Assembly (NCBI RefSeq): GCF_023015765.1
Contig: NZ_JALKAL010000006.1
Span: 124,001 to 188,000, forward strand
Reading direction: 5' to 3'
Length of the DNA: 64,000 nucleotides
Source: Ornithinimicrobium sp. F0845
GTDB taxonomy: Bacteria; Actinomycetota; Actinomycetes; Actinomycetales; Dermatophilaceae
Shown here one piece after another: positions 21,667 to 63,568 of this stretch. The position numbers and the translations under genes are program-made. The notes beneath the pieces were generated by a model, which searched no databases, was not told where the DNA came from, and saw only the letters and a list, made by a program, of their open reading frames with translations. Positions within the stretch are counted from its first letter, which is position 1. Each line of letters begins with the position of its first letter.

Positions 21667-21812
21667 CGGACCTCCCAAGGAATGCGCTGGTACCCAACCT
21701 CCCCAAAGATGCGCTGGAGGTGTAAAAACCTCCCCAAAGATGCGCTGGAGGGGTACAAAACCTCCCCAAAGATGCGCTGGAGGGGTACAAAACCTCCCCA
21801 AGAATTGGTGGG
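21667..21812 (+). repeat. 32-bp-period direct repeats, locus A (4-5 units)
   Basis: Units resembling ACCTCCCCAAAGATGCGCTG recur in direct tandem; the CC of the core falls at 21698, 21729, 21761 and 21793 (steps of 31, 32 and 32), with a degenerate unit before. They occupy most of the 370-bp gap between the MazE-like gene (start 21580) and the M14 gene (start 21951), where I see no other gene. This is the first of eight loci of the same family in the window. Confidence 0.9.
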
Positions 21813-21950
21813 TCAGGATTGGGTAAAGAGTGATTGGGAACTCTTGACCAGTCGCGGGCCGACCGACAGGGTGGGCACATCCACCCTGTCGGCCGTCCGG
21901 GTGCAGGGGTTTTCCGGACGGCGGGCTCCCGCTCGGCAGAAGGATCGCCC

Positions 21951-24900
21951 ATGACGCGTCGCACGCTGGCCACCGCACTCTCCGCAGCACTCCTGATCGC
22001 CGGCCCGGTCGCGGTCGCGTCCTCCGGGCACGGCGATCCACCCGGCCGCGCCACGGACGTCGGGACCCTCCAGTTGGATGACGCCGAGAGCGCCCTCGTC
22101 CGGCTGGAGCTGCCGGACCGCGCGGTCCTGGAGCAGCTGCTCCGGGACGACGCGGACATCGCCGCCATCCCGGCCGCCTCGCCGGAGGCCCGCGGTGACC
22201 GCGTGCTCGTCGATCTGGTGCTGACCGGCGAGGAGCTGGCGCAGCTGGAGTCGCAGGGCGCCACCGTGCTCCAGGTCATCCAGCGCGAGGGCGACGGGAC
22301 CCGGCACTTCGAGGCCAGCCGGGAGGCGGCGGCCCGCCAGCACGAGGCCGGCCTGACCAGGACCGCGGGCTCTGCGGTGCCCCAGGACACGCTGACCTTC
22401 GACCACGCCTACTGGTGGACCTCCGGCGGGCAGACGTTCGTCCAGGTCCAGGTCTCCACCACCGCCGGGACCGACCCCGCCCTGCAGATCACGGTCGACT
22501 GGGAGAGCGCGGACGGGACGACCGGGAGTTTCCCGCTGGTCCGCTACGTCGACGCGGGCCAGTACCTGTTCCACTACCACCAGCCAGCGCCCCTACCGGA
22601 CACGCCCGTCACGCTGACCGCCACGTCCAACCAGGGCGGCACCGCGACCGCCGAGCCGGTTTCGTGGCCGGGCAGCGAGCCGCCACCCCTGCCGTCGGGC
22701 TACCAGCAGGACTTCATCGACGCCTACCTGACGCCCTCCGAGATCAACGAGCGGATCGACCGGCTGGCGGAGCAGTACCCAGACCTCGTCGACGTCATCG
22801 AGCTGCCCCACCAGACCCACGGCTACAACCGGACCGCCAAGGCCTACCTCGGCGACCCGGCCGCGACCGCGATCGTGGTGGAGTCCGTCGCCTCCGGTGC
22901 CTCCGGCATGAACGGCACCGAGGTCCGGGTCGTGGACCCGGGCGCCCCGGACCAGGCCCTCAGCGGGGAGTATGCCGACGGGACCCTCACCGTCTCTCTC
23001 GCCACCGATGCCGCTGGTCAGGTGAGCAGCACGACCGAGGAGGTGACGGCATACCTCAACGAGCAGTTCTCCGGGACGTTCGGTGCCTTCGTCCTGGACG
23101 GCGCGGAGGGCCAGCCGATGCCCCTCGCCGAGGCCGTGCTTGATGACGGGCTGGAGGCCCCGCACCTGAGCCCCGACGGCGCCATGGTCCGCGCGCTGCG
23201 GATCGGCGTGCACCGCGACGGGTCGAGGCCCGGGGTCTACACCTACAGCCAGGAGCACGCCCGCGAGTGGGTCACGCCGCTGGTCACGATGGAGTTCGCC
23301 GAGCGCATGCTGGCCAACCACGCCACGGACGAGGAGACCGCCCGGCTGCTGGAGGAGGTCGAGATCTTCGTCCTGCCGGTGGTCAACCCGGACGGTGCGA
23401 ACTACTCGTTCAACGACTACAACTTCCAGCGCAAGAACCTGTCCGAGCACTGCGAGGGCGTCAACCGGGAACCGGCCTGGGAGGACAACTGGGGTGTGGA
23501 CGTCAACCGCAACTACGCGGTCGGCTCGGTCTGGGACGGCTATGTCGGCGGGTCGCTCAACTGCCTGTCGGGCAGTTTCGCCGGCACCGGTGAGCTGTCG
23601 GAGGCGGAGTCCCAGAACGTGACCTTCGTCGCCGAGCAGTTCCCGAACATCACCCACGCCATCAACGTGCACAGCTACGGCGGCTACTTCATGTGGTCTC
23701 CGGGCGCCTACCAGGCCGACGGCCGGGTGCCGCTGCCCCTGCCGGAGCCGGAGGTCGCCGAGGACTTCATGGTCGCCGCCCAGCGCATCGTGGGGGCCAT
23801 CGCCGGGCACCGCGGCACGGTGACCTGGCCGTCCAAGACCGGTCCGGTCGTCGACGTGCTCTACAGCGCCGCCGGCAACTCCGGTGACCACCTGTTCTAC
23901 GAGCACGACATCTACGCCTGGGACTTCGAGGTGGGCAACGACCTGTGGAACGAGGCCACCCAGCAGTGGGAGGGCGTCGGGTTCCAGCCGCCGTTCGAGG
24001 AGGCGCACCCCGAGTCCCAGGAGTATGCCGCCGGGCTGGTCGAGCTGGTCCGGGTCGCCGCTGACGACGCCCCGGTCCACCGGCTGAGCGGGGTGAACCG
24101 CTATGCCACGTCGGTGGCGATCGGTCAGGAGGCCTTCCCGGAGAGCCAGACGGCCGTGCTGGTCAGCGGTGCCGAGGTCGGTCTGGTCGACGGTCTGGTC
24201 GCCGGGCCGCTCGGCCGCCACCTGGAGGCGCCGGTCCTGCTGACCCGACCCGACCAGCTGCCCGCCGTGGTGGCGCAGGACCTGTCCGACCGCGGTGTCA
24301 CCGAGGTGGTCGTGGTCGGCGGGGAGGGCGCGGTCAACGAGGCCGTCGTGGACACCCTGACCGGTCTGGGCATCGACTCCGAGCGGGTGTCCGGCAGCGA
24401 CCGATTCGCCACGGCCGCCGCCGTCGCCGAGCGCCTGGGCGCGGGGGACGACGTCATCGTGTCCTCCGGTGAGGCCGGTCACCTCGTGGACGCCCTCGCG
24501 GTGTCCGGACCGGCAGCCGCCACCGGCACCCCGGTCCTGCTCGTCCGGCAGGACCGTGTCCCGAACGCCACGGCGCAGGCCCTGGAGGGCTACTCCTCGG
24601 CGGTGGCCGTCGGCGGCGCCGGTGCCATCTCCGACGACGTGCTCGCGGAGCTGCCGAACGCCGAGCGCCTCGCCGGTGCTGACCGGTGGAGGACGGCCAC
24701 GACCATCGCCGACCACTATGTCGGTGAGGGACTGGACGCCACCTCGGTGGCGGTCAGCTCCGGCGCTGACGCCCACCTGGTCGACGCACTGCCCGGTGGC
24801 ACGCTGGGTGAGGTGGTGCTGCTGTCCCGCCCGGGCGAGCTGCCCTCGGCGACCACCGCCTGGCTGGCCGCCTCGGCCGACACCGAGCACGTCTGGGTGC

Positions 24901-24974
24901 TGGGTGGTGTGACGGCGGTCGCGGACACCGTGATGGACACTCTCCGAGCGATGCTCGCGCCCTGGGCGGAGTGA
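21951..24974 (+). CDS. Secreted M14 carboxypeptidase with three cell-wall-binding (CWB2) repeats
   Basis: This 1007-residue protein has a signal peptide (TLATALSAALLIAGPVAVASS), an N-terminal accessory region of about 220 residues with a beta-sandwich look, then a peptidase M14 domain. Visible M14 residues are the zinc motif SQEHAREW, the substrate-binding VDVNRNYA, the zinc-binding INVHSYGG and the catalytic DFEVGND. From about residue 700 three CWB2 repeats follow (HRLSGVNRYATSVAIG, ERVSGSDRFATAAAVA, ERLAGADRWRTATTIA), which fix proteins to the wall non-covalently. It is a wall-attached zinc carboxypeptidase for peptides or murein-derived peptides. The ATG at 21951 follows AGAAGGA. A single-repeat CWB2 protein is encoded at 55911. 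Confidence 0.93.
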   Translation: MTRRTLATALSAALLIAGPVAVASSGHGDPPGRATDVGTLQLDDAESALVRLELPDRAVLEQLLRDDADIAAIPAASPEARGDRVLVDLVLTGEELAQLESQGATVLQVIQREGDGTRHFEASREAAARQHEAGLTRTAGSAVPQDTLTFDHAYWWTSGGQTFVQVQVSTTAGTDPALQITVDWESADGTTGSFPLVRYVDAGQYLFHYHQPAPLPDTPVTLTATSNQGGTATAEPVSWPGSEPPPLPSGYQQDFIDAYLTPSEINERIDRLAEQYPDLVDVIELPHQTHGYNRTAKAYLGDPAATAIVVESVASGASGMNGTEVRVVDPGAPDQALSGEYADGTLTVSLATDAAGQVSSTTEEVTAYLNEQFSGTFGAFVLDGAEGQPMPLAEAVLDDGLEAPHLSPDGAMVRALRIGVHRDGSRPGVYTYSQEHAREWVTPLVTMEFAERMLANHATDEETARLLEEVEIFVLPVVNPDGANYSFNDYNFQRKNLSEHCEGVNREPAWEDNWGVDVNRNYAVGSVWDGYVGGSLNCLSGSFAGTGELSEAESQNVTFVAEQFPNITHAINVHSYGGYFMWSPGAYQADGRVPLPLPEPEVAEDFMVAAQRIVGAIAGHRGTVTWPSKTGPVVDVLYSAAGNSGDHLFYEHDIYAWDFEVGNDLWNEATQQWEGVGFQPPFEEAHPESQEYAAGLVELVRVAADDAPVHRLSGVNRYATSVAIGQEAFPESQTAVLVSGAEVGLVDGLVAGPLGRHLEAPVLLTRPDQLPAVVAQDLSDRGVTEVVVVGGEGAVNEAVVDTLTGLGIDSERVSGSDRFATAAAVAERLGAGDDVIVSSGEAGHLVDALAVSGPAAATGTPVLLVRQDRVPNATAQALEGYSSAVAVGGAGAISDDVLAELPNAERLAGADRWRTATTIADHYVGEGLDATSVAVSSGADAHLVDALPGGTLGEVVLLSRPGELPSATTAWLAASADTEHVWVLGGVTAVADTVMDTLRAMLAPWAE

Positions 24975-24989
24975 CCGGCTGACGGCCCC

Positions 24990-25034: not shown

Positions 25035-25047
25035 GTCGTCGTACCGG

Positions 25048-25105: not shown

Positions 25106-25155
25106 TCCCCTCCCTCGCAGTTGTCTCGGACGTCGGTGCTCGCCCCTCGCCGATG

Positions 25156-25784: not shown

Positions 25785-25855
25785 GAAACCATCATACGGC
25801 CACTGCATGCAGGTGCATGCGTGCTGTGGACTGGAGGCCCCTGCGGGTCGAGCAT

Positions 25856-25918
25856 GAACGAAACCACTACAAAATGCGTGGAGGGGTGAACGAAACCGCT
25901 ATGAAAAATGGGGGGGAT
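25856..25918 (+). repeat. 32-bp-period direct repeats, locus B (2 units)
   Basis: GAACGAAACCACTACAAAAT at 25856 and GAACGAAACCGCTATGAAAA at 25888 are exactly 32 bp apart. The pair fills the gap just upstream of hrpA and ends about two bases before its GTG start, so its G-rich end (GGGGGGG) could serve as hrpA's ribosome site. Confidence 0.9.
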
Positions 25919-25920
25919 TT

Positions 25921-28900
25921 GTGACGATGGCTGGCATGCCCGCCCAGCACGCCACCCCACCCCGGCGTGCCCGCGACCAGCGTCGCAGGCGGCCCCGGTC
26001 GCAGCCCGACCCGCAGCGGCGGGCCGAGCGGCTCGAGGCGCGGCGGGCGATGCTGCCGGCCAGTATCAACTACCCGCCGGAGCTCCCGGTCGTCGAGCGG
26101 CGCGAGGACATCGCCGCCGCGATCCGGGACCACCAGGTGGTGATCGTCGCCGGGGAGACCGGCTCGGGCAAGACCACCCAGCTGCCCAAGATCTGTCTCG
26201 AGCTCGGCCGCGGCATCGAGGGCACCATCGGGCACACCCAGCCGCGACGGATCGCCGCGCGCTCGGTGGCGGAGCGGATCAGCGAGGAGCTGGCCGTCGA
26301 GCTCGGCACGACGGTGGGCTACCAGGTGCGGTTCACCGACCGGTCGACCAAGGACACGCTGGTCAAGGTGATGACCGACGGAATCCTGCTCGCGGAGCTG
26401 CAGCGCGACCGCGACCTGCGCCGCTATGACACGCTCATCATCGACGAGGCCCACGAGCGCAGCCTCAACATCGACTTCATCCTCGGCTACCTCAAGCAGC
26501 TGCTGCCGCGCCGCCCGGACCTGAAGGTGATCATCACCTCGGCCACCATCGACGTGCAACGCTTCTCCGAGCACTTCGCCGACCGCGACGGCAAGCCTGC
26601 CCCGGTCGTGGAGGTCACCGGGCGCAGCTATCCGGTCGAGATCCGCTTCCGCCCGCTCACCCGTCCGGCACCACCGGCCAAGGACGGCACACCCCGCGAC
26701 GTCGAGATCGACCAGGTGACCGGTGTCTGCGAGGCGGTCGAGGAGCTGTGGACCGAGGACCCCGGCGGGGGACCGGCCGACATCCTCGTCTTCTGCTCCG
26801 GCGAGCGGGAGATCCGCGACGTCGCCGACGCCCTCGACGGGATGAACCTGCCGGCCACCGAGGTGCTCCCGCTCTACGGCCGGCTCTCCGCAGCCGAGCA
26901 GCACCGCGTCTTCAGTCGGCACTCCGGGCGCCGGATCGTGGTCTCCACCAACGTCGCCGAGACCTCGCTGACCGTGCCCGGCATCCGCTACGTCATCGAC
27001 ACCGGCACGGCCCGCATCTCCCGCTACTCCCAGCGCCTGAAGGTCCAGCGCCTGCCGATCGAGCCGATCAGCCAGGCCAGCGCCAACCAGCGCTCGGGCC
27101 GGTGTGGTCGCCTCGCCCCCGGCATCGCCGTCCGGCTCTACTCCCAGGAGGACTTCGAGGCCCGACCCGAGTTCACCGAGCCGGAGATCCTGCGGACCAA
27201 CCTGGCCTCCGTCATACTGCAGATGACCAGCCTCGGACTGGGTGAGATCGCCCGCTTCCCCTTCCTCGAGCCGCCCGACTCGCGGCAGATCGCCGACGGC
27301 GCCCGCCTGCTCGACGAGCTCCAGGCCATCGACCCCGACGCCCCGGTGCACGTCCCGCGGAAGCGACTGACGCCATACGGCCGGGCGATCGTCGCTCTCC
27401 CGGTGGACCCGCGGCTCGCGCGGATGGTGATCGAGGCCGAGCGCAACGGGGCCCTGCGCGAGGTGCAGGTGATCGTCGCCGCCCTGTCGATGCAGGACCC
27501 CCGCGAGCGGCCGGCCGACAAGCAGGCGCAGGCCGACCAGTCGCACGCCCGGTTCAAGGACGAGGAGTCCGACTTCGTCACGCTGCTCAACCTGTGGCGC
27601 TACCTGAAGAAGCAGCAGAAGGAGCTCTCCGGCAGCGCGTTCCGGCGGATGTGCAAGCGTGAGTACCTCCACTACCTGCGCGTTCGCGAGTGGCAGGACC
27701 TGCACACCCAGCTCAAGGCGGCGACCCGGTCCCTCGGGCTGCAGGCCAACAGCAACGACGCCAGCCCGGACCAGGTGCACCAGGCGCTGCTGGCCGGGCT
27801 GCTCTCGCACGTCGGCCTCTACGACCGGGACAAGCGGGAGTATGCCGGGGCGCGGGGGGCGCGCTTCGTCATCCAGCCCGGGTCGGTCCTGCACCGCAGG
27901 AACCCGGACTGGGTGATGACCGCCGAGCTCGTCGAGACCACGCGGCTGTGGGCGCGGGTCAACGCGCCGACCGACCCGGCGTGGGTGGAGCGGGCCGCCG
28001 CGCACCTGGTGAAACGCTCCTACTCCGAGCCGCGGTGGTCCCGGAGCCGGGCCTCGGCGGTGGCGACCGAGCGGGTCACGCTGTACGGCGTGCCGCTGGT
28101 CGCCGACCGGACGGTGGCCTACGGCCGGATCGACCCGGAGGTGGCGCGCGACCTGTTCATCCGGCACGGCCTGGTCGAGGGGGACTGGGACACCCGGCAC
28201 GACTTCTTCCACGCCAACCGGCGCCTGATCCGGGAGCTGGGAGAGCTGGAGGCGCGGGCGAGGCGCCGCGACATCCTGGTCGACGACGAGACGCTGGTGC
28301 AGTTCTATGACGCGCGTATCCCTGAGGAGGTCGTCTCCGGGGCGCACTTCGACACGTGGTGGAAGACGGCCCGGCGCGCCGACGCCCGGCTGCTGACCTT
28401 CACCGAGGACCTGCTGGTCAGCGACGACGCGTCGCTGGTGAGCGACCGGGACTACCCGGGCACGTGGCGCCAGGGTGAGCTGGAGTTCACCGTCACCTAC
28501 CAGTTCGAGCCGGGGTCCGGGTCGGACGGGGTGACCGTGCACCTGCCGATCGAGGTGCTCAACCGGGTGCGGCCCGACGGCTTCGACTGGCAGGTGCCGG
28601 GGCTCCGCGAGGAGCTGGCGACGGCTCTGGTCAGGTCGCTGCCCAAGGAGATCCGCCGCAACTTCGTGCCCGCCCCGGACCACGTGCGCCGGGCGCTCGC
28701 CGAGATCGGGGAGCCCCGGGACGAGGACGAGACCTTCGTCGAGGCGCTGGCCGAGGAGCTGACCGCCCGCCGCGTGGTGCCCGTGGCGCCCTCGGACTTC
28801 GACGTCGCACGGGTGCCGGACCACCTGCGGGTGACCTTCGCCGTGGAGCGGACGCACCCGCGCAAGGGACGGGGCCGGGCGCGGGTCGAGCTGCTGGGGG

Positions 28901-29865
28901 AGGGCAAGGACCTGGCCGCGCTCCAGGCCGAGCTGGCGCCCGCGGTCCGGACCACGATGGCCCGCGCGGCGGCGAGCATCGAACGGACCGGACTGACCTC
29001 GTGGACGGAGGCCATCGGCATACTGCCCGAGACCTTCGAGCAGCAGGTGGCGGGCAAGACGGTGGTGGGCTATCCGGCGCTGGTCGACACCGGTGCGGCG
29101 GTTGACGTGCGGGTGCTGGGGACGGCCTCCGAGCGGGACCGGGCGACGCGCGTCGGGGTGCGGCGGCTGCTGCTGCTCAACACGACACCGCCGTGGAAGC
29201 GGCTGCTCGCGCTGCTGACCAACCCGCAGAAGCTCTCGCTCGGGCACAACCCGCACGGGTCGGTGCCGTTGCTGCTCGAGGACGCGCTGGCGTGCGCGGT
29301 GGACTCGGTGGTCGCCGAGATGCCGGGCGCGCGGGTGCGCACCCCGGAGGAGTTCGATCGGGCTCTGGCGACGGTGAGGCAGCAGGCGGTGCCGCGGGTG
29401 CTGCAGATCGTGGAGAGTCTGGTGCCGATCCTGGACACGGCGCGCGAGGTGTCGCTGGGGCTGCAGCGGCTGACCGCACCGGCCGCTGCGGAGATGGCCG
29501 CTGACCTGCGGCGACAGCTCGACGCGCTGATCCGGCCCGGCTTCGTGGCGGACACGGGCTACCACCGGCTGCCGCACCTGCGGCGCTATCTGGCGGCGAT
29601 GGCCGAGCGGCTGGAGAAGGGCGCGCAGGACCTGGCCAAGGACCGCGACCGGATGGCCACGGTCCACACGGTCGAGGAGGAGCACGCGAAGTTCCTGGCC
29701 GGGCTGCCCCCGCACCGGCGCCTCGACCAGGACGTCGTGGACATCGGCTGGATGCTGCAGGAGCTGCGGGTCAGTCTGTTCGCCCAGCGGCTGGGGACAC
29801 CGCAGCCGGTATCTCCGAAGCGGATCTACGCGGCGATGGACCGGGCCGAAGACCCCCAAATTTAG
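25921..29865 (+). CDS. hrpA: ATP-dependent RNA helicase HrpA
   Basis: This 1314-residue DEAH-box helicase has an Arg-rich N-terminus, motif I GETGSGKTTQLPKI near residue 78, IIDEAHERSLN (DEAH), SATID, a helicase C domain ending NQRSGRCGR, the HA2 and OB regions, and the long C-terminal DUF3418-type domain (VARVPDHLRVTFAVER onward). Length and order match bacterial HrpA, an RNA/ribonucleoprotein remodeller. The GTG at 25921 or the ATG at 25927 are both possible; the repeat block immediately upstream provides the only G-rich ribosome site. Its last codons and TAG stop (29863-29865) lie inside repeat locus C, so the final Asp-Pro-Gln-Ile is repeat-derived. Confidence 0.95.
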   Translation: MTMAGMPAQHATPPRRARDQRRRRPRSQPDPQRRAERLEARRAMLPASINYPPELPVVERREDIAAAIRDHQVVIVAGETGSGKTTQLPKICLELGRGIEGTIGHTQPRRIAARSVAERISEELAVELGTTVGYQVRFTDRSTKDTLVKVMTDGILLAELQRDRDLRRYDTLIIDEAHERSLNIDFILGYLKQLLPRRPDLKVIITSATIDVQRFSEHFADRDGKPAPVVEVTGRSYPVEIRFRPLTRPAPPAKDGTPRDVEIDQVTGVCEAVEELWTEDPGGGPADILVFCSGEREIRDVADALDGMNLPATEVLPLYGRLSAAEQHRVFSRHSGRRIVVSTNVAETSLTVPGIRYVIDTGTARISRYSQRLKVQRLPIEPISQASANQRSGRCGRLAPGIAVRLYSQEDFEARPEFTEPEILRTNLASVILQMTSLGLGEIARFPFLEPPDSRQIADGARLLDELQAIDPDAPVHVPRKRLTPYGRAIVALPVDPRLARMVIEAERNGALREVQVIVAALSMQDPRERPADKQAQADQSHARFKDEESDFVTLLNLWRYLKKQQKELSGSAFRRMCKREYLHYLRVREWQDLHTQLKAATRSLGLQANSNDASPDQVHQALLAGLLSHVGLYDRDKREYAGARGARFVIQPGSVLHRRNPDWVMTAELVETTRLWARVNAPTDPAWVERAAAHLVKRSYSEPRWSRSRASAVATERVTLYGVPLVADRTVAYGRIDPEVARDLFIRHGLVEGDWDTRHDFFHANRRLIRELGELEARARRRDILVDDETLVQFYDARIPEEVVSGAHFDTWWKTARRADARLLTFTEDLLVSDDASLVSDRDYPGTWRQGELEFTVTYQFEPGSGSDGVTVHLPIEVLNRVRPDGFDWQVPGLREELATALVRSLPKEIRRNFVPAPDHVRRALAEIGEPRDEDETFVEALAEELTARRVVPVAPSDFDVARVPDHLRVTFAVERTHPRKGRGRARVELLGEGKDLAALQAELAPAVRTTMARAAASIERTGLTSWTEAIGILPETFEQQVAGKTVVGYPALVDTGAAVDVRVLGTASERDRATRVGVRRLLLLNTTPPWKRLLALLTNPQKLSLGHNPHGSVPLLLEDALACAVDSVVAEMPGARVRTPEEFDRALATVRQQAVPRVLQIVESLVPILDTAREVSLGLQRLTAPAAAEMAADLRRQLDALIRPGFVADTGYHRLPHLRRYLAAMAERLEKGAQDLAKDRDRMATVHTVEEEHAKFLAGLPPHRRLDQDVVDIGWMLQELRVSLFAQRLGTPQPVSPKRIYAAMDRAEDPQI

Positions 29866-29975
29866 GGGAGGTTCTGTACGCCTCTCCCGCATTCTTGGGG
29901 AGGTTTTGCACGTACCGAATTACCCCAAGAATGCGGGCTGGGCGTGCAGAGTCTCCCCAAGAATGGGTGGGCCTA
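29852..29975. repeat. 32-bp-period repeats, locus C, in both orientations
   Basis: Two minus-orientation units (AGGTT at 29869 and 29901) are followed by plus-orientation units (CCCCAAGAATG at 29923 and 29955), each pair exactly 32 bp apart. The head-to-head arrangement could fold into an imperfect hairpin. The block lies between convergent hrpA and the DsbA-like gene and supplies the stop codons of both (TAG at 29863-29865 and, on the minus strand, TAG at 29973-29975). Confidence 0.85.
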
Positions 29976-30761
29976 CAGACCGAGGGCAGCGGCCAGGCCC
30001 TCCGGGGTCTGCTCACCGGCGAAGCGTTCGCCGTCGATGAGCACCGTGGGCGTGCCGAACCGCCCCGACGGCCCGGCCAGGTCCGGGTCGGCCAGGGCGC
30101 GGTCGGTCGCGTCACGCACCCACCCGTCATACTCCCGGTCCAGGATGCAGGCGCGGGTGTCGGCGGAGCCGGCCCCGGCGTCGCTGACCGCCCCGGTGAG
30201 CACGTCGTCGTTCACGCTGCCCTGGGTGGCCGCCTGCTGCAGGTCGAAGAGGCTCTGCGTGACGTCGAGGAAGGCGCCCGGCTCGTGGGTGGCGACGCAG
30301 GCCGCCGCGTTGGCCGCGCGGCTGGAGAACTGCGTGCCCTGGCTGGCGTTGTCCATGAGCGCGACCGGGTGCACCTCCAGCGCGATGGCGCCGGCCTCGA
30401 CCTGCTCGGTCAGGAACGGCATGTTGGTCTGCTCGAAGGCCAGGCAGTGGGGGCACTGGAAGTCGACGTAGACGCCGACCCGGGGGAGATCCTCGGCCGC
30501 GTCCGCGGACCCTTCGGCGTCGACACCACCGTCCTGACCCACCAGGACGACGCCGTCGTCGGTCATGTTGCCCGGTGTCGCCGAGGCGCCCCCGCCCTGG
30601 TTGAGCGCGATCGCGGCGACGACCGCGACCACCGCCAGGACGGCGACGCCGATAAGGGAGCGGAAGACCACCTTCACGCGCTGGTCCTGGGCCGCCCGGG
30701 CCTGCTGCTCTGCTCGGACACGCTCGCGCGCCGACTGCTGCTGTTTCTTCTTCTGAGCCAT
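29973..30761 (-). CDS. Membrane-anchored DsbA-like thioredoxin-fold oxidoreductase
   Basis: This 262-residue protein has a basic Gln/Lys-rich N-terminus, one membrane anchor (about residues 33-55) and an extracytoplasmic thioredoxin domain. The active site is QCPHC (Cys103, Cys106) in VGVYVDFQCPHCLAFEQ, with the cis-Pro loop FGTPTVLIDG near the end. A second Cys pair (AACVAT and RACILD) may form a structural disulfide. It should oxidise thiols of exported proteins. The next gene upstream is a VKOR homologue, 29 bp away on the same strand, which re-oxidises DsbA with quinone. The ATG is at 30761. The stop lies in repeat locus C. Confidence 0.9.
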   Translation of the reverse strand: MAQKKKQQQSARERVRAEQQARAAQDQRVKVVFRSLIGVAVLAVVAVVAAIALNQGGGASATPGNMTDDGVVLVGQDGGVDAEGSADAAEDLPRVGVYVDFQCPHCLAFEQTNMPFLTEQVEAGAIALEVHPVALMDNASQGTQFSSRAANAAACVATHEPGAFLDVTQSLFDLQQAATQGSVNDDVLTGAVSDAGAGSADTRACILDREYDGWVRDATDRALADPDLAGPSGRFGTPTVLIDGERFAGEQTPEGLAAALGL

Positions 30762-35755: not shown

Positions 35756-35812
35756 CTGGCCTCCTTGCTCCTGACCATTGAACCGGCTGGGCGCCGGGAT
35801 CGGTTGCCTCCC

Positions 35813-35877
35813 CCAACTTTCGTAGTGGTTCTGCTGGTCGATCCCGGATTTTCGCAGGGGTTTTGCTGGTCGCTCAG
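35813..35877 (-). repeat. 32-bp-period direct repeats, locus D (2 units)
   Basis: Two minus-orientation units place GCTGGTC at 35833 and 35865, exactly 32 bp apart. The stop codon of the SDR gene (TGA at 35874-35876) stands at the edge of the first unit. The block separates the SDR gene from the sigma-factor gene. Confidence 0.88.
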
Positions 35878-36680
35878 CGCAGGTAGCTTGCACCGTTGAA
35901 GTCCACGACCGCCCCCGAGACCCACTCCGCACCGGGCTCGGCCAGCGCACAGATCGCGGCGGCGACCTCCTCCGGCGAGGCCACCCGGCCGAACGGACTC
36001 TGCGCGCGGATCGCGTCGCCCGAGGCGCCCTCGAGGACGCTGACGGCCATGTCGGTCGCGATGAAGCCCGGGGCGAGCGAGACCACGCCGATCCCGTGCG
36101 GCGCCAGGGCCACCGCCATCGACTGGCCGAAGGCGTGCAGCCCCGCCTTGCTCGCGCCGTAGGCGGGGACGTCCGGCTCCCCGCGGTAGGCGCCGCGTGA
36201 CCCGACGTTGACGATGCGTCCGGTCGGGCTGCCGTCGGGCGGCGGCACCTCCAGCATGTGCCGGGCCACGCAGAAGGTGAGGTTGGCCGGACCCATCAGG
36301 TTGGTCTCCAGCGTCGTCCGCCACGCCCGGACCCACGTGTCGTAGTCGGCGTCGGTCACCCGGTGGTCCCCGCGCCGGCTGCCGCCGGCCTGCGGGTCGA
36401 GGAAGAGCGCGGCGTTGTTGACCAGGACGTCGATCCGCCCGAGGACCTTCGCGGCCTCGCTCGCGAGGGTCCGCGTCTCGTCGGGGGAGGCAAGGTCGGC
36501 CTGCAGTATGCCGTGCCCGTCACCCGGGAGTGACTCCAGCACCTCGCGCGCCCGGTCCTCGGCGCCGCGGTAGTGCACCACCACCCGGTCACCGCGCTCG
36601 GCGAACGCGCGGGCGGTCTCGGCCCCCACCCCACGAGAGGCGCCGGTGACCAGAATCCCTCGGCCGGTCACGGTGTCCAC
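35874..36680 (-). CDS. Short-chain dehydrogenase/reductase
   Basis: This 268-residue SDR has the cofactor motif VTGASRGVG, NNAALF (NNAG-type), Ser in NVGSRGAY and the catalytic YGASKAG. It ends in the usual GAVVDFNGASYLR. The chemistry is NAD(P)-linked oxidation/reduction of an alcohol or ketone; the substrate is unknown. It starts at GTG 36680 and overlaps the 3' end of the lipoprotein gene by 13 bp, with GAGGAGC just upstream, so the two are cotranscribed. Repeat locus D begins at its stop codon. Confidence 0.9.
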   Translation of the reverse strand: MDTVTGRGILVTGASRGVGAETARAFAERGDRVVVHYRGAEDRAREVLESLPGDGHGILQADLASPDETRTLASEAAKVLGRIDVLVNNAALFLDPQAGGSRRGDHRVTDADYDTWVRAWRTTLETNLMGPANLTFCVARHMLEVPPPDGSPTGRIVNVGSRGAYRGEPDVPAYGASKAGLHAFGQSMAVALAPHGIGVVSLAPGFIATDMAVSVLEGASGDAIRAQSPFGRVASPEEVAAAICALAEPGAEWVSGAVVDFNGASYLR

Positions 36681-37344: not shown

Positions 37345-37737
37345 ATGGCCACAGCCGCCCGCAAGACCCTTCGCTGGGGCGCCCTCATGGGTGTCGCCAA
37401 CGCGATCCGCTCCGCGAACCGTCCCGGCTCGCCGGGCCTGGGGGAGCGCCTGGCCGCGCTGCCGCGGATGGCTGGGGCGATCATGACCAAGAAGTACTCC
37501 GGCGTCGCCGGCTCCCAACTGCTGATGATGCTGGCCGCCGTCGGGTATGTCGTGAGCCCGGTCGACCTGATGCCCGAGGCAGTTCTGCTGCTGGGTGGGC
37601 TGGCGGACGACGCCCTCGTCGTCGGCTGGCTCTCCGTTGCCGTCATCAACGCGACCGACGACTTCCTGGACTGGGAGAAGAATGCGAAGGCCTACCCGGG
37701 CCAGGTCCACCACTCCACCACCCACCATTTCTCATAG
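37345..37737 (+). CDS. YkvA/DUF1232 family membrane protein
   Basis: This 130-residue protein has the DUF1232 core YVVSPVDLMPEAVLLLGGLADDALVV near the middle, flanked by hydrophobic segments and preceded by a basic N-terminal stretch. The family is membrane-associated; its function is unknown. The ATG at 37345 follows GGAGCCC. Its last codons (HHSTTHHFS) and TAG stop fall in repeat locus E, so the natural C-terminus may have been altered by repeat insertion. Confidence 0.8.
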   Translation: MATAARKTLRWGALMGVANAIRSANRPGSPGLGERLAALPRMAGAIMTKKYSGVAGSQLLMMLAAVGYVVSPVDLMPEAVLLLGGLADDALVVGWLSVAVINATDDFLDWEKNAKAYPGQVHHSTTHHFS

Positions 37738-37778
37738 TGGTTCCGTCCGCCCTCCACAACACTTTGTGGGGGTTCGCG
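37724..37778 (-). repeat. 32-bp-period direct repeats, locus E (2 units)
   Basis: Minus-orientation units place GGTT at 37739 and 37771, exactly 32 bp apart. The first unit contains the TAG stop (37735-37737) and last residues of the YkvA-like gene. Confidence 0.85.
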
Positions 37779-37868
37779 GGCGCACCTGGTGTCCTACGTC
37801 CACTACCGCCTGTCCGAGGCGCAGTTCGCGGCGGTCGAGCGCGACGCCGCGACGGCAGTGTGCCGCAA

Positions 37869-38478: not shown

Positions 38479-38535
38479 TCGCCAGTGCGCCTGGCGACCC
38501 AGGACCCCGGACCGACACCACGGTCCGGGGCCCAC

Positions 38536-38620
38536 ATTTTTCGTAGTGGTTTCGTCGGTCCCTCACGCATTTTCGCAGGGGTTTTGCTGGTCGCTCCCGC
38601 ACTGTTGTCGTGGTTTGTGC
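38536..38620 (-). repeat. 32-bp-period direct repeats, locus F (3 units)
   Basis: Minus-orientation units place GGTTT at 38548, 38580 and 38612, each exactly 32 bp apart, giving three units between the small ORF and the drug-efflux gene. The rest of this 338-bp gap (to 38816) shows no gene. Confidence 0.9.
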
Positions 38621-38816
38621 CTTCACCCGTCCGACGCGCAGGGCGAGGTGCTCGCGGAGGTGAGCGCACGGCATACGGCCCCAGGTCGGGGAAAATTCGG
38701 TTGCCCGAGGAGGACCGGCGCGCGCACCATCGAAGGGTCGCCGATGACTTCGGCCGCCCGCGGCGGTCATACCGCCCGTGAGGGACACCAACCCACCCCG
38801 TGACGGAGGAACACCC

Positions 38817-40365: not shown

Positions 40366-40428
40366 GGGCCTACAAAACCACTACAAGAAGACGTGGCGGG
40401 CCTACAGAACCACTACATTTTTAGGTGG
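40366..40428 (+). repeat. 32-bp-period direct repeats, locus G (2 units)
   Basis: CCTACAAAACCACTACAAG at 40369 and CCTACAGAACCACTACATT at 40401 are exactly 32 bp apart. The TAA stop of the minus-strand S9 peptidase (40421-40423) lies in the second unit. The MFS stop is about 70 bp upstream. Confidence 0.9.
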
Positions 40429-42604
40429 ACTCACCGTCCGCGCGGTCGGAGGTCGCCTCCTCCAGCTCCTCGGCCGCCGCGGCGGCCCGCAGCTGCTTCT
40501 CGGTCGGGGCGCTGCGCCCCAGCTCCACGGGCAGCTCGGGCGCCTCTGCCCCCAGCACGTGCTCGGCCAGGAAGCCGGACACCACCTGATACCAGACCTT
40601 CGCGTGCTGCGGGGAGAGGATCCAGTGGTTCTCGTTGGGGAAGTACAGGAACCGGTGCACGGTCGAGCCGTCGTCGCCGGCGGGCCGCCCGGACGCGGCG
40701 AGCAGTTCGTACCAGAGCCGCAGGCCCTCACCGATCGGCACCCGGTAGTCCTTGTCACCGTGGATGACCAGCATCGGCGTGACGATCTTGTCGACGAAGC
40801 GGTGCGGACTGTTGGCCTCGCCCATCTCCCGGGTCATCTCGCGCTGCCAGTAGAACGCGGCGTCCGTGGTCGGCCCGAACTGGTCCAGCGCCCACAGCGA
40901 CGCGTGCGTCACGATCGCCCGGAACCGGTCGGTCTGCCCGGCGACCCAGTTGGCCATGTAGCCGCCGAACGAGCCGCCCATCGCCGCGGTCCTGGTCTCG
41001 TCGATGTCCTCGCGGGCGACCACGTGGTCGGTGATCGCCATCAGGTCCTCGTAGGGCGCCTGTCCCCACGAGCCCCAGCCACGCTGGATGAAGTCCTGCC
41101 CGTAGCCGGTCGACAGCGCCGGGTCCGGCAGCAGCACGGCATACCCCTGTGCCACGAGCAGCCACGGGTTCCACCGCCAGGTCCAGGCGTTCCACGACCC
41201 CAGCGGCCCGCCGTGGATCCACAGGAGGAGGGGGTGTCCGGCCGCGCCCGCGTCACCCTCGGGCAGCGCCAGCCAGCCCCGCACCCGCGTGCCGTCGGCC
41301 GCGGTCGTCTCGACGTCCTCGAGCCGGCCGGGGATCTCGGGCCGCTCCACCGGGCCGGGCAGCGCGGCCGTCGCGCCGGTGGACAGGTCGATCCCCACGA
41401 TCTCGGCCGGGAAGAGATAGCTGGAGCGCACGGCATACGCGCGGGTCCCGTCGGGCGAGACGACCACCTCGGAGTATGACGAGTCGTCGGTGGTCACCTG
41501 GCTCACCTCTCCCGTGGTCACCTCGATCCGGAAGACGGGGGAGCGGCCGTTGTCGTCGGCCGTCGCCAGCACGGCGCTGCCGTCCGGCAGCCAGGCGGCG
41601 GGGCTGGCCCAGCGGTCCCAGCCGGCGGCCAGCGGGGTGCGCTCGCCGGAGGTGAGGTCCAGCAGGTGCAGCACCGGGTGGGGTGCCTGGTCAGGGGTGC
41701 TCTTGCGGTCGACCACGATCAGGGCCCGGGTACTGTCGGGGCTGATCAGGGGAGCGTAGAACTCGTGGTCCGGCTCGTCGGCGACGACGGAGCGTGCGCC
41801 CGTCGCGAGGTCGATGCGCACCAGCTGGCTGCGCTGCTCGCCTCGGGCCTCCGGCACCGTGAGCGACACCAGCGCGAACGTGCCGTCCGGGCTGACCGCG
41901 GGCCTGGCATCGCGCATCGCGGAGCCGACACCCTCGCTGACCCAGCGCAGCTTCAGCGGTGGGACGTGGTCGGTGGTCGTGGGGCGCGTGCTCTCGGCCT
42001 CCTCGTCGGGCTCGGCGACGAAGAGCTGCGGCGCGACCGGGCCCAGGTCGGCGTCCCAGAAGCGCACCGGATAGCTGTCGTGCAGGATCGCCTGAACCCC
42101 GCCGTCCTTGCGCGCCTTGTGGATCGCGGCATGGGTCTTCTCGTCGGTGGCTCCGGGCAGCAGGCCGGCGACCACCACCGTCACGTCGGCGTCGCGGGCG
42201 CACAGCACGCCGGACACGCCACCGGGCCGGGACAGGACGACACGCGCCTCGCCCCCGCCCGCCGGGATCTCCCAGAGCGCGGCCTCCGGGCTGTCCTCGT
42301 CGGCCTCCGGGTTGGGCCGGGCCGAGGTGAAGTAGAGGGTGCCGTCGCTGCTGAAGGCCGCGCCGGCCTCACCCTTGGCGCTGCGGGTGATCCGGTAGGC
42401 CGGGCGCTCGCCCTGGGGGTCCACGCCCCACAGCGCGGTGGCGTAGCCGGTGCCGGCCTTGGTGACCGTGGACACCGTGGTGACCAGACGGGTGCCGTCG
42501 TGACTGATCGCCAGGCCGCCGAGGCGTGGCATCGCGACATACTGATCCAGATCATGGAAGATGGTGGGGGTGGCCAGCGGCTCCGAGGTCATGAGGTCTT
42601 TCAT
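40421..42604 (-). CDS. S9 family serine peptidase (prolyl oligopeptidase/acylaminoacyl type)
   Basis: This 727-residue enzyme has an N-terminal beta-propeller region (repeated Asp-Gly-Thr turns such as ISHDGTRLVT and SPDGTFALV) and a C-terminal alpha/beta-hydrolase domain. The nucleophile elbow is GGSFGGYMANW (Ser near residue 545) and a final His is in NENHWIL. It should cleave short peptides. The ATG at 42604 is the longest; ATG 42592 is an alternative, and neither has a clear ribosome site. Its stop codon lies in repeat locus G. It is probably cytosolic, as no signal peptide is seen. Confidence 0.93.
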   Translation of the reverse strand: MKDLMTSEPLATPTIFHDLDQYVAMPRLGGLAISHDGTRLVTTVSTVTKAGTGYATALWGVDPQGERPAYRITRSAKGEAGAAFSSDGTLYFTSARPNPEADEDSPEAALWEIPAGGGEARVVLSRPGGVSGVLCARDADVTVVVAGLLPGATDEKTHAAIHKARKDGGVQAILHDSYPVRFWDADLGPVAPQLFVAEPDEEAESTRPTTTDHVPPLKLRWVSEGVGSAMRDARPAVSPDGTFALVSLTVPEARGEQRSQLVRIDLATGARSVVADEPDHEFYAPLISPDSTRALIVVDRKSTPDQAPHPVLHLLDLTSGERTPLAAGWDRWASPAAWLPDGSAVLATADDNGRSPVFRIEVTTGEVSQVTTDDSSYSEVVVSPDGTRAYAVRSSYLFPAEIVGIDLSTGATAALPGPVERPEIPGRLEDVETTAADGTRVRGWLALPEGDAGAAGHPLLLWIHGGPLGSWNAWTWRWNPWLLVAQGYAVLLPDPALSTGYGQDFIQRGWGSWGQAPYEDLMAITDHVVAREDIDETRTAAMGGSFGGYMANWVAGQTDRFRAIVTHASLWALDQFGPTTDAAFYWQREMTREMGEANSPHRFVDKIVTPMLVIHGDKDYRVPIGEGLRLWYELLAASGRPAGDDGSTVHRFLYFPNENHWILSPQHAKVWYQVVSGFLAEHVLGAEAPELPVELGRSAPTEKQLRAAAAAEELEEATSDRADGEST

Positions 42605-59175: not shown

Positions 59176-59185
59176 GACGCGAACC

Positions 59186-60439: not shown

Positions 60440-60449
60440 GTCCCTCTCC

Positions 60450-61424
60450 TCAGCGTCGACCGGAGGGCACGGGGGTGCGCTGCAGTATGTCGGACACCAC
60501 GTCCGCGGTCGTCCGTCCCGTCAGCTGTGCCTCACCGCTGAGCATCAGGCGGTGGGTCAGCACGGCCGGCGCCAGGGCCTGCACGTCCTCGGGGAGCACG
60601 TGGTCGCGCCCGACGAGGGCGGCGTTGGCGCGGGCCGCGCCGAGCAGGTGCAGCCCGGCGCGCGGGGAGGCGCCTAACCTGATCGAGGGGTGCTGGCGGG
60701 TCGCGGTGACCAGCGCCACGACATACTCCCGCAGGGCGGGGGCGGTGTGCAGGCGACGGACGGCGCTGATCTGGCGCTGCACGGTCTCGCCGTCGGTGAC
60801 GGGCTCGAGGGAGCCCAGCGGGTCGGCCTCGCCATGGGACTGCAGCATCGCCAGCTCGGCCGCCCCGGAGGGGTAGCCCATCGAGATGCGCGCCATGAAA
60901 CGGTCGCGCTGCGCCTCGGGGAGGGGGTAGGTGCCCTCCATCTCGATAGGGTTCTGGGTGGCCATCACCAGGAACGGACCGGCCAGCTCGTAGGTGCTGC
61001 CGTCGACGGTCACCTGACGCTCGGCCATGCACTCCAGCAGCGCCGACTGGGTCTTGGGGGAGGCCCGGTTGATCTCGTCGCCGACCACGATGTTGGCGAA
61101 GATCGCGCCCCTGCGGAACTCGAAGGTGCGGGTGTCCTGGTTGAAGACATTGACGCCCGTGATGTCGCTGGGCAGCAGGTCGGGCGTGAACTGGATGCGG
61201 CTGACGTTGCAGTCGATCGAGCGGGCCAGGGCCTTGGCCAGCATCGTCTTGCCCACACCCGGCACGTCCTCGACCAGCAGGTGGCCCTCGGCCAGGAGCA
61301 CCGTCACCGCGGTGCGGAGGGCGTGCTCCTTGCCCTCGATCACGGTGCTGATCGCCCGGTGGATGGCACCGGCGACGGACTGCACGGAGTCCAGGTCGGG
61401 AGCTGGCCCTGCATTCACGGTCAT
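60450..61424 (-). CDS. MoxR family AAA+ ATPase
   Basis: This 324-residue ATPase has Walker A EDVPGVGKTMLAK, Walker B IVVGDEINRASPKTQSALLE with the MoxR sensor QNPIEMEGTYPLPEAQRDRF, and a lid domain ending LAPAVLTHRLMLSG. MoxR ATPases act as chaperones for assembly of partner proteins with VWA-type domains. It is the first gene of a three-gene minus-strand unit. The ATG is at 61424; longer upstream frames overlap the mraZ promoter region and have no ribosome site. The unit is divergent from mraZ. Confidence 0.94.
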   Translation of the reverse strand: MTVNAGPAPDLDSVQSVAGAIHRAISTVIEGKEHALRTAVTVLLAEGHLLVEDVPGVGKTMLAKALARSIDCNVSRIQFTPDLLPSDITGVNVFNQDTRTFEFRRGAIFANIVVGDEINRASPKTQSALLECMAERQVTVDGSTYELAGPFLVMATQNPIEMEGTYPLPEAQRDRFMARISMGYPSGAAELAMLQSHGEADPLGSLEPVTDGETVQRQISAVRRLHTAPALREYVVALVTATRQHPSIRLGASPRAGLHLLGAARANAALVGRDHVLPEDVQALAPAVLTHRLMLSGEAQLTGRTTADVVSDILQRTPVPSGRR

Positions 61425-61658
61425 GGAGGTGATCCTGCCTCGTCGTCGAGCGTCGGTGCGCGTGCTTCTCTCGTAGAAGCCTACGTGCCCGGCGGCCAAC
61501 TCCGATGGTCCGTCGCCCGGGTTGGTGAGCACGTGAGACAGACGCCCGACGCGGCGCTGAGGTTGCAGTCCCTCCGGTGCTCGTTTCCCCCACTTTCCCC
61601 CCACCTTCCTGACCTGCACAAATGCTCTGAGCAAGCCGCGAATTGCCGTCGGATGGCG

Positions 61659-61710
61659 TTGACAGTGGTGCAAAGTGGAGTACTGTGGGGCGCATTGGAT
61701 GGACCTGGAG
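61659..61710 (+). promoter_or_regulatory. mraZ promoter with four MraZ boxes
   Basis: TTGACA at 61659-61664, a 16-nt spacer and TACTGT at 61681-61686 form a good sigma-70 promoter. Overlapping it are four TGGNN pentamers on an exact 10-bp period (TGGAG 61676-61680, TGGGG 61686-61690, TGGAT 61696-61700, TGGAG 61706-61710), the arrangement of MraZ operator repeats. Autorepression of the mra cluster is therefore likely. The rest of the 61425-61740 gap shows only a 6-bp-stem hairpin at 61464-61480. Confidence 0.8.
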
Positions 61711-61740
61711 TAGCCATCGACTCGGGAAGGGGTGGTCACG

Positions 61741-62172
61741 GTGTTGCTTCTCGGCACCTACTCGCCCCGCCTGGACGACAAGGGACGGATGTTCCTGCCG
61801 GCCAAGTTCCGCGACAAGCTCGCCGGGGGAGTGGTGATGACGCGTGGTCAGGAGCGCTGCCTCTACGTCTATCCGATGGCCGAGTTCGAGAAGGTCGCCG
61901 AGCGCCTGCAGAGCGGCCCGACCACCAACGCCGGAGTCCGCGCCCACCAGCGACTTCTCCTGTCCGGCGCCTCCGACGAGATCCCCGACAAGCAGGGCCG
62001 GGTCACCGTCCCGGCGATCCTGCGGGAGTATGCCGGGCTGTCCCACGAGTGCACCGTCATCGGCTCCGGCGACCGCCTCGAGATCTGGGACGCCCAGGCC
62101 TGGGCGACCTACGTCGCCGACCACGAGGACGCCTTCGCCAACCAGAGCGAGGAGGTGGTCCCGGGCCTGTAG
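61741..62172 (+). CDS. mraZ: MraZ, transcriptional regulator of the division/cell-wall cluster
   Basis: This 143-residue protein has the two DxxxR-type SpoVT-like repeats of MraZ: GTYSPRLDDKGRMFLPAKFRD near the start and PDKQGRVTVPAILREYAG in the second half. MraZ forms a ring that binds TGGG-type repeats upstream of its own gene and represses the cluster. Four such repeats precede it here. The GTG at 61741 gives the canonical length; a GTG nine bases earlier is too near the ribosome site. First gene of the dcw cluster. Confidence 0.95.
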   Translation: MLLLGTYSPRLDDKGRMFLPAKFRDKLAGGVVMTRGQERCLYVYPMAEFEKVAERLQSGPTTNAGVRAHQRLLLSGASDEIPDKQGRVTVPAILREYAGLSHECTVIGSGDRLEIWDAQAWATYVADHEDAFANQSEEVVPGL

Positions 62173-62261
62173 AAGTCGATCCCCCACCTCGCCCCACCCC
62201 GACCCCCCACCTCACTCCACCGACCGGCCCTGATGTCTGGTCTCCAGCCGCACCGCCCGCA

Positions 62262-62334
62262 CCCGACTCCACTTCCCCGGAGCCGGGCGCACCACGAGCA
62301 GGACCATCCCGACTCCTCTTCCCCGGAGCCGGGC
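62262..62334. repeat. 27-bp direct repeat between mraZ and rsmH
   Basis: A 27-bp sequence beginning CCCGACTCC at 62262-62288 recurs with one mismatch at 62308-62334 (46-bp period). It lies in the 343-bp gap between mraZ and rsmH, which otherwise shows only GC-rich sequence and the AAGGAGGAGACG ribosome site of rsmH. Each unit contains CCCCGGAGCCGGG, a partial palindrome. Confidence 0.8.
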
Positions 62335-62515
62335 CGGACCACTCGGACGGCGCGGAGGGGGACCAGGTCCCAGGGCCCGAGGAAGAACAGCACTGGCGCC
62401 GCACGGCGGCTGGGACCACCACCCACCACGACACACCCAAGCACCGACCACCGACAGCCACCCACGAGAGCCAGCACCGGGACACGGAGCAGCACCAGGA
62501 CCGAAGGAGGAGACG

Positions 62516-63568
62516 ATGACACAGCGACCGGCCGCAGCACGGCATACTCCCGTGCTGCGCGATCGCATCGTCGAGCTTCTCGCACCCGCCTTGCAGGACG
62601 AGGGCGCGGTCTATGTGGACGGCACCCTCGGGATGGGGGGCCATGCGGAGGCGATCCTCACGGCCTGCCCAGGGGTCACGGCGGTCGGCATCGACCGGGA
62701 CACCGAGGCGCTCACCCTGGCCGGGGAGCGCCTCGCGACTTTCGGGGACCGGTTCGTCCCGGTGCACGTGGTGTATGACGAGATCACGCGGGCCCTGGCG
62801 CAGCGCGGCATCCGGGAGGCGCAGGCGATCCTGTTCGACCTCGGTGTCTCCTCGCTGCAGCTGGACGAGGCGGAGCGGGGCTTCGCCTACCGGATGGACG
62901 CGCCGCTGGACATGCGGATGGACCAGACGACCGGCCTCACCGCGGCGGACGTCCTGAACTCGTATGACGTGCGCGAGCTGGAGGTGATCCTGCGCGAGTT
63001 CGGCGAGGAGAGGTTCGCGCGCAAGATCGCCAGGGCGGTGGTGACCGAGCGGGAGAGGGAGCCGTTCACCACCTCGGCGCGGCTGGTGCAGCTGCTGCAC
63101 GACGTCGTGCCGGCCGCCTCCCAGCGCTCCGGCGGCCACCCGGCCAAGCGGACCTTCCAGGCGCTGCGGATCGAGGTCAACGCCGAGCTGTCCGTGTGGC
63201 AGGACGCGCTGCCGGCCGCGCTGGACCTGCTGCCGGTGGGCGGGCGGATCGCGGTGCTGTCCTACCACTCCCTGGAGGACCGGATCACCAAGCGCGGGCT
63301 GGCCCTGGGCGCGACCAGCTCCGCGCCGCCGGACCTGCCCTTCGAGCTGCCCGAGCACAAGCCCTGGCTGCGGCTGCTCACCCGGGGTGCCGAGATGGCC
63401 GACCCGGCGGAGACCGCGCTGAACCCGCGGGCCGCCTCGGTGCGGCTGCGTGCCGCCGAGCGGACCCGTGCAAAAGCCCTGCAAAAAAGCGTGAGGGACC
63501 AGCGAAACCCCTACGAAATTGCGGGGGAGACCAGCAAAACCACTACGAAAAAGGGGGAAACCCGATGA
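62516..63568 (+). CDS. rsmH: 16S rRNA (cytosine-1402-N4)-methyltransferase RsmH (MraW)
   Basis: This 350-residue enzyme has [13 protein letters not shown], the SAM site [16 protein letters not shown], the [20 protein letters not shown] motif and [11 protein letters not shown], all standard for RsmH, which methylates C1402 of 16S rRNA. The core ends near residue 325. The last ~25 residues ([20 protein letters not shown] onward) are encoded by repeat locus H and are not a normal RsmH end, so the natural stop has been displaced. The ATG follows AAGGAGGAGACG. It overlaps the ftsL start by 4 bp (ATGA). Confidence 0.96.
63474..63562 (+). repeat. 32-bp-period direct repeats, locus H (3 units) inside rsmH 3' end
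   Basis: AAAGCCC near 63474, AAACCCC near 63505 and AAACCAC near 63537 mark three units; GACC is at 63497 and 63529, exactly 32 bp apart. The units encode the C-terminal tail of RsmH. The last unit ends AAAAAGGGGG, which becomes the ribosome site of ftsL. Confidence 0.9.

Follow-up and report, generated by a model that had tools for sequence, protein, structure and literature searches.

Polar arrays of a 32-bp direct repeat at gene ends in a clade of Ornithinimicrobium

The genome of Ornithinimicrobium sp. F0845 (4.2 Mb in 59 contigs) contains many short arrays of a 32-bp direct repeat, and one particular end of these arrays mostly lies at the stop codons of converging genes. We describe these arrays starting from a stretch of 64,000 nucleotides (contig NZ_JALKAL010000006.1, positions 124,001 to 188,000; 71.6% G+C), hereafter the window, in which an earlier reading of the sequence (the original prediction) had recorded eight dispersed loci of such repeats and proposed that their units face the same side of the DNA. 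The arrays look like an undescribed set of candidate binding sites that may end transcription at gene ends. Judged from sequence comparisons, a protein bound on one face of the DNA remains our first choice of explanation, but one that would act at gene ends. Evidence for this comes from the geometry of the arrays, from their polarity and place relative to genes, and from their fate among related genomes.

The repeat unit and the genomes that carry it

The unit is 32 bp long, roughly GGACCAGCAAAACCACTACGAAAATGCGGG. It has AAACC-C----AAAA as its conserved core, and some eight positions are loosely conserved. Arrays are oriented from an S end to a T end, the T end being that which reads ...AATTGGGG and the S end its opposite; the last unit typically ends ...AAAATTGGGG(G) and is followed by unique sequence. 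Among 99 arrays from several genomes, 117 of the 127 steps between units are exactly 32 bp and the rest are 30, 31 or 33 bp, bearing out beyond the window the spacing that had been predicted within it. Two units are present in 76 of these arrays, three in 18 and four in five, and the mean unit score drops from the T end outward (29.1, 27.1, 24.0 and 19.0 for 99, 99, 23 and 5 units). Long decayed array tails were rejected from these unit counts and scores.

The arrays are not readily produced by chance. Twenty first-order Markov shuffles of the window each gave no array, compared to eight in the real sequence at equal thresholds, using a weight matrix partly trained on these same arrays. Independently of the matrix, the core read in the original prediction, AAACCNCTACGAAAAATG, matches 62 times in the 4.2-Mb genome with up to three mismatches, compared to six matches for the reversed pattern, and the units expected elsewhere in the genome are thus present. 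A general excess of 32-bp periodicity in stretches of 20 to 64 kb was not clear outside the arrays. A pattern of high background (101 matches versus 85 for its control), used solely to fetch loci, also finds the core CCACTCGGAAAATGCG outside the arrays studied, with two copies 62 bp apart (G000:C23:67782 and 67844; also C12:120207 and C57:196756; G000 is this genome).

Arrays are numerous in seven of the 31 genomes of the genus. A two-unit model, R1, was searched through these genomes, scoring at most 150 candidates in each and counting overlapping windows. At E<=0.1 it matches 137 times in G000 and 52, 141, 80, 123, 48 and 154 times in G002, G005, G006, G007, G017 and G024, respectively, and no more than once in each of the other 24 genomes. 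Training of both R1 and the weight matrix drew mostly on G000, so that their counts are low in genomes that use another dialect of the repeat (described below). Among 186 genomes of the family, at the stricter E<=0.01, the same seven match, and G010, G026, G031 and G101 match once each. Among 396 genomes sampled from the order, at E<=0.001, only the source genome matches, the other six evidently lying outside the sample. In part of an 8-kb stretch the seven carriers are also the closest genomes, at 82-89% identity versus 80% or less for the others, which makes a clade trait likelier than the patchy horizontal spread at which the first core pattern had hinted. One locus of G024, found with a strict pattern, is 100% identical over 1699 bases to a contig of the metagenome bin 'Actinomycetales bacterium AS06rmzACSIP_198'. 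A two-unit pattern has no match in IMG/VR, and a 64-nt consensus of this genome's dialect has none in the plasmids and phages searched.

Position and orientation relative to genes

Gene context was examined for 169 arrays (58 from G000), mostly the best-scoring of those fetched and each with at least 250 nt of flank on either side, using genes called by a codon-usage script trained on the window. Outside called genes lie 149 arrays, of which 12 are read through at the end of a gene. The T side meets a converging gene in 91 arrays, and the stop codon of that gene lies within -16 to +8 nt of the T end in 83 of the 91. Where genes flank the array on both sides, the T end is at a stop in 82 of 90 cases, versus 19.6 expected under uniform placement in the gap (27 of 30 in G000 alone). 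The S end behaves differently: among 46 convergent pairs it reaches a stop in 3, versus 11.9 expected. In 16 of 78 arrays along which a gene runs, the S end lies within -16 to +8 nt past the stop of that gene. The original description of units in either orientation misses the main point, which is that arrays keep a largely constant direction with respect to genes.

In 55 of the 169 arrays it is a start codon that the T end faces, within -16 to +12 nt in 22. In 42 of the 55, operon-type cases in which the array runs S to T along co-directional genes, the next start is a median of 12.5 nt from the T end. In 44 tandem pairs with the T end toward the stop of the first gene, the next start lies a median of 118 nt past the S end, which leaves room for a promoter. 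A second array stands back to back with the first in 13 of 44 convergent cases, and among 84 arrays 17 belong to such inverted arrangements. A strand bias in G007 seen with the first core pattern (22 to 4) disappeared with the dialect pattern of that genome (67 to 52).

The converging stop is inside the T unit, at offsets of -15 to -11, in 26 of 91 cases; in the dialect of this genome the sequence there is CGTAGTGG on the complementary strand. In 53 of 91 the stop is at the T end itself, at offsets of -5 to +9. Stop codons beside arrays are TGA in 37 cases, TAG in 24 and TAA in 23, compared to 121, 34 and 8 in control genes. This usage, and the stops inside the unit, would suit a translation device in which the TAG on one strand of the unit and a step that is not a multiple of three, shifting the frame, make up a multi-frame stop cassette. 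The stops at the T end itself and the dialect core of G002 and G017, which has no TAG, argue against such a device, and we hold it to be very improbable.

Arrays inside genes obey a single orientation. All 20 of them (each orthologue being counted, so that the glgB-type locus enters four times, and a few gene calls weak) run S to T along the gene, and 15 are in one frame, encoding QNxxENAGxxxKTxxKIG-like peptides. According to Pfam, a maltokinase cap domain and GlgB_N share a reading frame into which an array is embedded between them (L044 in G000, and L115, L186, L204 and L171), another array joins FAS1-type and MaoC dehydratase domains (L004), and others interrupt a protein of alanine-racemase fold (YggS-type) and a GMC oxidoreductase. 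In two dialects the units carry TAGs on one strand.

Although the arrays occupy the place of intrinsic terminators, they do not resemble them. An intrinsic terminator is a G+C-rich hairpin followed by a U tract, whereas the 65 nt from the stop into the array fold hardly better than shuffled sequence (mean z of -0.33, 84 arrays), compared to -1.06 at 162 other gene ends, and contain 32% T rather than 14%. Being less structured than gene ends elsewhere, the arrays cannot be counted as intrinsic terminators. No covariation indicative of pairing was found in 92 inner and 70 end units, in which no run of column pairs exceeds expectation and the best isolated pairing (z 4.8) rests on 4% paired; a hairpin in RNA or single-stranded DNA, which the motif GTGG...CCAC might invite, was rejected for lack of covariation. 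The array might instead act as an RNA element at the 3' end, the U-rich and weakly structured transcript past the stop (CCCCAAUUUUCGUAGUGGUUUUG) serving as a pause, a Rho-type stop or the site of an RNA-binding protein. Arrays read in the sense of the gene are T-rich, little structured and directly past stops, where ribosomes leave, as this would require. Intragenic and operon arrays, however, are transcribed from the other strand, so a single RNA motif cannot serve both; there is no clear RNA reason for a conserved 32-bp phase, and the dialects alter the RNA strongly. We consider an RNA element improbable.

In the window, the weight matrix, from which the coordinates and orientations in Table 1 are taken, finds all eight predicted loci as nine arrays, locus C being two arrays back to back, and every step is 32 bp except for the single 31-bp step noted earlier in A. 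An additional degenerate unit, 27 bp away from its neighbor, lies at the edge of A near position 21670. The G run at the T end of B may be a ribosome site, a role that the original prediction gave to both B and H. Five loci had been thought to supply the stop codons or last residues of genes. This is so for the hrpA, DUF1232 and S9 genes, whose stops fall inside a unit; the T end of C-right immediately precedes the DsbA-like stop (29973-29975), which is thus just outside the unit, and rsmH stops past H, its TGA (63566-63568) overlapping an ATG at 63565-63567. The rsmH and short-chain dehydrogenase (SDR) genes meet their arrays at the opposite end from hrpA, DUF1232, S9 and DsbA-like. Array D was correctly placed at the SDR stop, but G002, G007 and G017 retain the end of that gene without an array, so D merely adjoins the stop. 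The S9 gene end carries arrays in G002, G017 and G007 as well, each in its own dialect.

Table 1. Repeat arrays of the window and the genes that adjoin them (strand of a gene, or orientation of an array, as + or -).
Feature	Positions	Strand or orientation	Description
Array A	21687-21810	+	4 units, steps 31/32/32, CCTCCCCAAAGATG sub-type; between divergent genes (own gene calls)
Array B	25853-25913	+	2 units; upstream of hrpA
hrpA-type helicase	26050-29865	+	DEAD, Helicase_C, OB_NTP_bind, DUF3418; ends within C-left; start codon by own caller
Array C-left	29854-29914	-	2 units; T unit holds hrpA stop TAG 29863-29865
Array C-right	29909-29969	+	2 units with low matrix scores; stands back to back with C-left
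DsbA-like thioredoxin-fold gene	29973-30761	-	converges on C-right
Array D	35811-35871	-	2 units; begins directly past SDR stop codon (35874-35876, minus strand)
Short-chain dehydrogenase (SDR)	35874-36680	-	upstream of D
DUF1232 (YkvA-like) gene	37345-37737	+	ends within E
Array E	37723-37783	-	2 units; T unit holds DUF1232 gene stop TAG 37735-37737
Array F	38532-38624	-	3 units; array at equivalent place in G024
Array G	40367-40427	+	2 units; T unit holds S9 peptidase stop TAA 40421-40423, minus strand
S9 (prolyl oligopeptidase) gene	40421-42604	-	ends within G
rsmH (MraW methylase family)	62552-63568	+	reads through H
Array H	63465-63557	+	3 units; rsmH reads through all of H

Other repeats occur beside some arrays. 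In G005, at the orthologue of E (L106/L107, joined, about 19180-19265), a tandem repeat of about 16 bp, CTGCCAGTACTCGTAA, lies directly past the DUF1232 gene, with TAA/TGA in its units, and is followed by that genome's own 32-bp array. In G017, at the orthologue of F (L102, about 18030-18100), the intergenic gap holds a short tandem repeat with GGTGAGGCGCGCGGCATACGGAA, and a core similar to GGTGAGGCGCGCGGCATACGGAA is found in the window at about 38655-38680. At L263 (G007:C1:2707400-2708700), a gene end of 41 residues is present twice, about 430 bp apart, flanking a four-unit array; recombination at the array is a possible origin of this duplication.

Shared places and dialects among related genomes

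Orthologous arrays were paired across genomes by the score of their flanks. Place and orientation are shared by 89 pairs, 87 of them full-length (a laxer first filter gave 1638). Thirteen pairs (L013 in G002 is an example) share a place in opposite orientation, several of these stemming from inverted array pairs, and a control with reversed flanks gives none of 15351. Twelve loci were aligned by eye: at least one of the relatives shown has an array at eight (L029, L131, L013, L003, L138, L004, L025 and L044), and none does at four (L009, L012, L046 and L040). At the yggS-type locus, L025, the array is present in G006, G024 and G007 and absent from G017 and G002. Place D is empty in G002, G007 and G017, where the flanks are joined without an array, and L009 is empty in G006 and G002 directly past the TGA of the converging gene, which stays (by eye). 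The C-termini of the hrpA and DUF1232 genes differ, by eye, in relatives without the array, as would be expected from the original prediction.

The repeat itself differs between these genomes as three dialects (up to three mismatches, 31 genomes). The core AAACCNCTACGAAAAATG is found 122 times in G024, 62 in G000, 48 in G006, 31 in G005, 26 in G007, nine in G002, never in G017, and zero to three times in the others. The core CGGTCCGAACCTCCCCAAAAATG is found 87 times in G017 and 52 in G002, at most six times in the rest and never in G024, and GCGTRCGARACCTYTATCAAAATG 119 times in G007, 16 in G005, 12 in G024 and at most five times in the rest; the reversed controls of both give no match in any genome. 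For orthologous full-length arrays of different dialects (45 pairs) the median identity is 59%, with quartiles of 52-66% and a range of 43-80%, while their flanks are 77-96% identical among the matches listed. These arrays are no closer than random pairs, even in the spacer (0.46 versus 0.43, reached by 72 of 500 shuffles). Within the group of G000, G005, G006 and G024, 37 pairs remain closer than random both in the spacer (0.60 versus 0.48, 0 of 500 shuffles) and in the core (0.58 versus 0.50). Sub-types of the array occur within one genome, and among 182 full-length arrays, 57 of them in this genome, no pair from the same genome exceeds 92% identity. The absence of close copies speaks against recent copying and suggests that selection acts at each site.

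Two explanations that do not call for a function of the arrays bear on these comparisons. Under neutral molecular drive, the dialects would be spread by gene conversion between arrays at scattered loci, and arrays would lie wherever they are harmless. Dialects peculiar to a lineage at shared places, and orthologues of different dialect with no detectable spacer memory, are what such a process would yield; yet conversion should leave identical pairs, which are lacking at the 92% level among the 57 arrays of this genome, and the four-genome group keeps its spacer memory. We regard molecular drive as very improbable.

The other explanation, and the main rival to the one we favor, is a non-autonomous mobile repeat, comparable to the mycobacterial interspersed repetitive unit (MIRU). 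Two-unit elements of about 60 bp would have been inserted by an unspecified enzyme at or beside stops, where, as in operon junctions, they were tolerated, and would afterwards have been amplified in tandem and decayed. The empty sites at D and L009, whose two edges seem by eye to carry TGA/TC-like bases, speak for insertion, as do the 13 shared places in opposite orientation, the sub-types within one genome and the fall of unit score outward from the T end. The empty sites may equally be losses, though, and the polarity is stricter than tolerance requires. Many places are common across dialects, including those inside the glgB-type and MaoC-type frames, and copies above 92% identity are absent. 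The REP-type Y1 transposase (PF01797), the one transposase searched for, was found in none of the 31 genomes of the genus, and the search was positive in 5 of 14 control genomes. A 'master' transposon between inverted arrays was rejected, for the loci concerned (L143-L148 and L152) hold ordinary-looking genes, as judged by eye from their translations. Overall, we find a mobile repeat of this kind a doubtful explanation.

A possible one-way barrier and its relation to known elements

We propose that an array is a pair, or sometimes three to five, of sites for a single sequence-specific DNA-binding factor. As the sites are about three helical turns apart, the bound molecules would share one face of the DNA, and the bound array would stop or strongly slow RNA polymerase entering from the T end, whereas polymerase arriving from the S end would pass. 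Site and factor would co-evolve, and shifts in the specificity of the factor between species would give rise to the dialects. To such a polar barrier at gene ends, formed by a putative factor, we assign a probability of roughly 40%. The broader proposal, that one-way barriers across the genus replace hairpins at many stop codons through one factor, whose fast co-evolution yields the dialects of sister species, is unlikely.

Several observations favor the barrier. The conserved 32-bp phase argues for a protein on one face of the DNA, and polarity together with place argues for an effect on polymerase leaving a gene. The rule that arrays in genes and operons share the strand of those genes fits a one-way barrier; within genes, in-frame stops on the opposite strand would enforce the same rule. 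If the arrays are bound, the dialects would imply a factor whose specificity shifts from one species to another.

Other observations weigh against this proposal. No binding factor was found, PF01797 being the sole gene family searched for across whole genomes. The 55 of 169 arrays that face a start codon need another role or none, and TAGs on one strand alone would force the single orientation of intragenic arrays. The 13 shared places in opposite orientation weaken the proposal in favor of replacement, reinsertion or saturation, and it is weakened also by the lack of spacer memory across dialects, some of which site-by-site change should leave unless saturated. The pooled array counts include orthologues and are not independent. 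Finally, a second factor would be required for a second, sequence-unrelated tandem repeat of the same clade (approximately CACCGAGCGCAYGGCGTGGCGCGATTCCAAC), which has a mostly 32-bp period and lies near gene ends by eye. It is found at L253 (200-340), L254 (180-360), L255 (215-400), L256 (which has one 28-bp step), L258, L259, L260, L262 and G000:C1:576476-576507, and a strict pattern for it gives 12 matches, only in G000, G007, G017 and G024 among the 186 family genomes. That an unrelated family has the same period suggests that steps of 32 bp may be a property of the machinery rather than of one sequence.

The arrays appear to be a new kind of element, in that they differ from each system with which they were compared and no description of such arrays was found in the open-access literature. 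Among the nearest known systems are MIRUs, which prefer overlapping stop and start codons and insert with a TGA-type target duplication. Like the arrays, MIRUs are actinobacterial, intergenic, present as direct tandem copies and found at operon junctions; 77-bp and 53-bp copies with promoter activity are reported between senX3 and regX3 (PMC4213456). They differ in having a unit of about 50-100 bp and in occurring in mycobacteria, whereas the 32-bp unit is numerous in seven genomes of another genus and has a conserved phase, polar anchoring at converging stops and dialects.

Like repetitive extragenic palindromic (REP) sequences, with their REPIN doublets and RAYT transposases, the arrays are many dispersed short doublets, with GTAG on the minus strand. 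REP doublets are inverted, as in 93% of 430 cases according to one report (PMC3116915), whereas the arrays are direct and have no helix-like pairing signal. Clustered regularly interspaced short palindromic repeats (CRISPR) have unique spacers, whereas the unit here is contiguous and has loosely conserved positions. With no spacers, direct doublets, no hairpin signal and no Y1 transposase, the arrays are neither CRISPR nor REP-like, in agreement with the original prediction. Rickettsia palindromic elements are inserted in frame in genes, with a preferred frame as in our intragenic arrays, but they are palindromic, whereas the arrays have no palindrome and just 20 of 169 are intragenic. A mobile element carried by phages or plasmids is not matched, as no array copies were found on the viral contigs, plasmids or phages searched.

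Among sites for proteins, NrdR boxes are pairs about three turns apart, but they are palindromic, lie in promoters and have another sequence. Tandem polar Reb1 or TTF-I boxes, located just past the transcript end in eukaryotic rDNA, terminate transcription by a protein roadblock; they belong to one type of eukaryotic locus, whereas the arrays stand at many bacterial gene ends and are likened to them from orientation and position only. In Beggiatoaceae, many sets of two to six TAACTGA direct repeats with an unknown binder lie beside genes (PMC4679880); these are heptamers mostly just upstream of start codons, with no 32-bp phase.

Hairpins and Rho are the accepted means by which transcripts end in bacteria. 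If the barrier proposed here is real, the arrays would be a new way of marking the ends of bacterial genes, and the three dialects at shared loci would offer a natural series in which to follow the co-evolution of a binding protein with dozens of its sites. Even if the arrays prove to be a mobile repeat, none of the elements with which they were compared accounts for their being anchored at stop codons in a single orientation.

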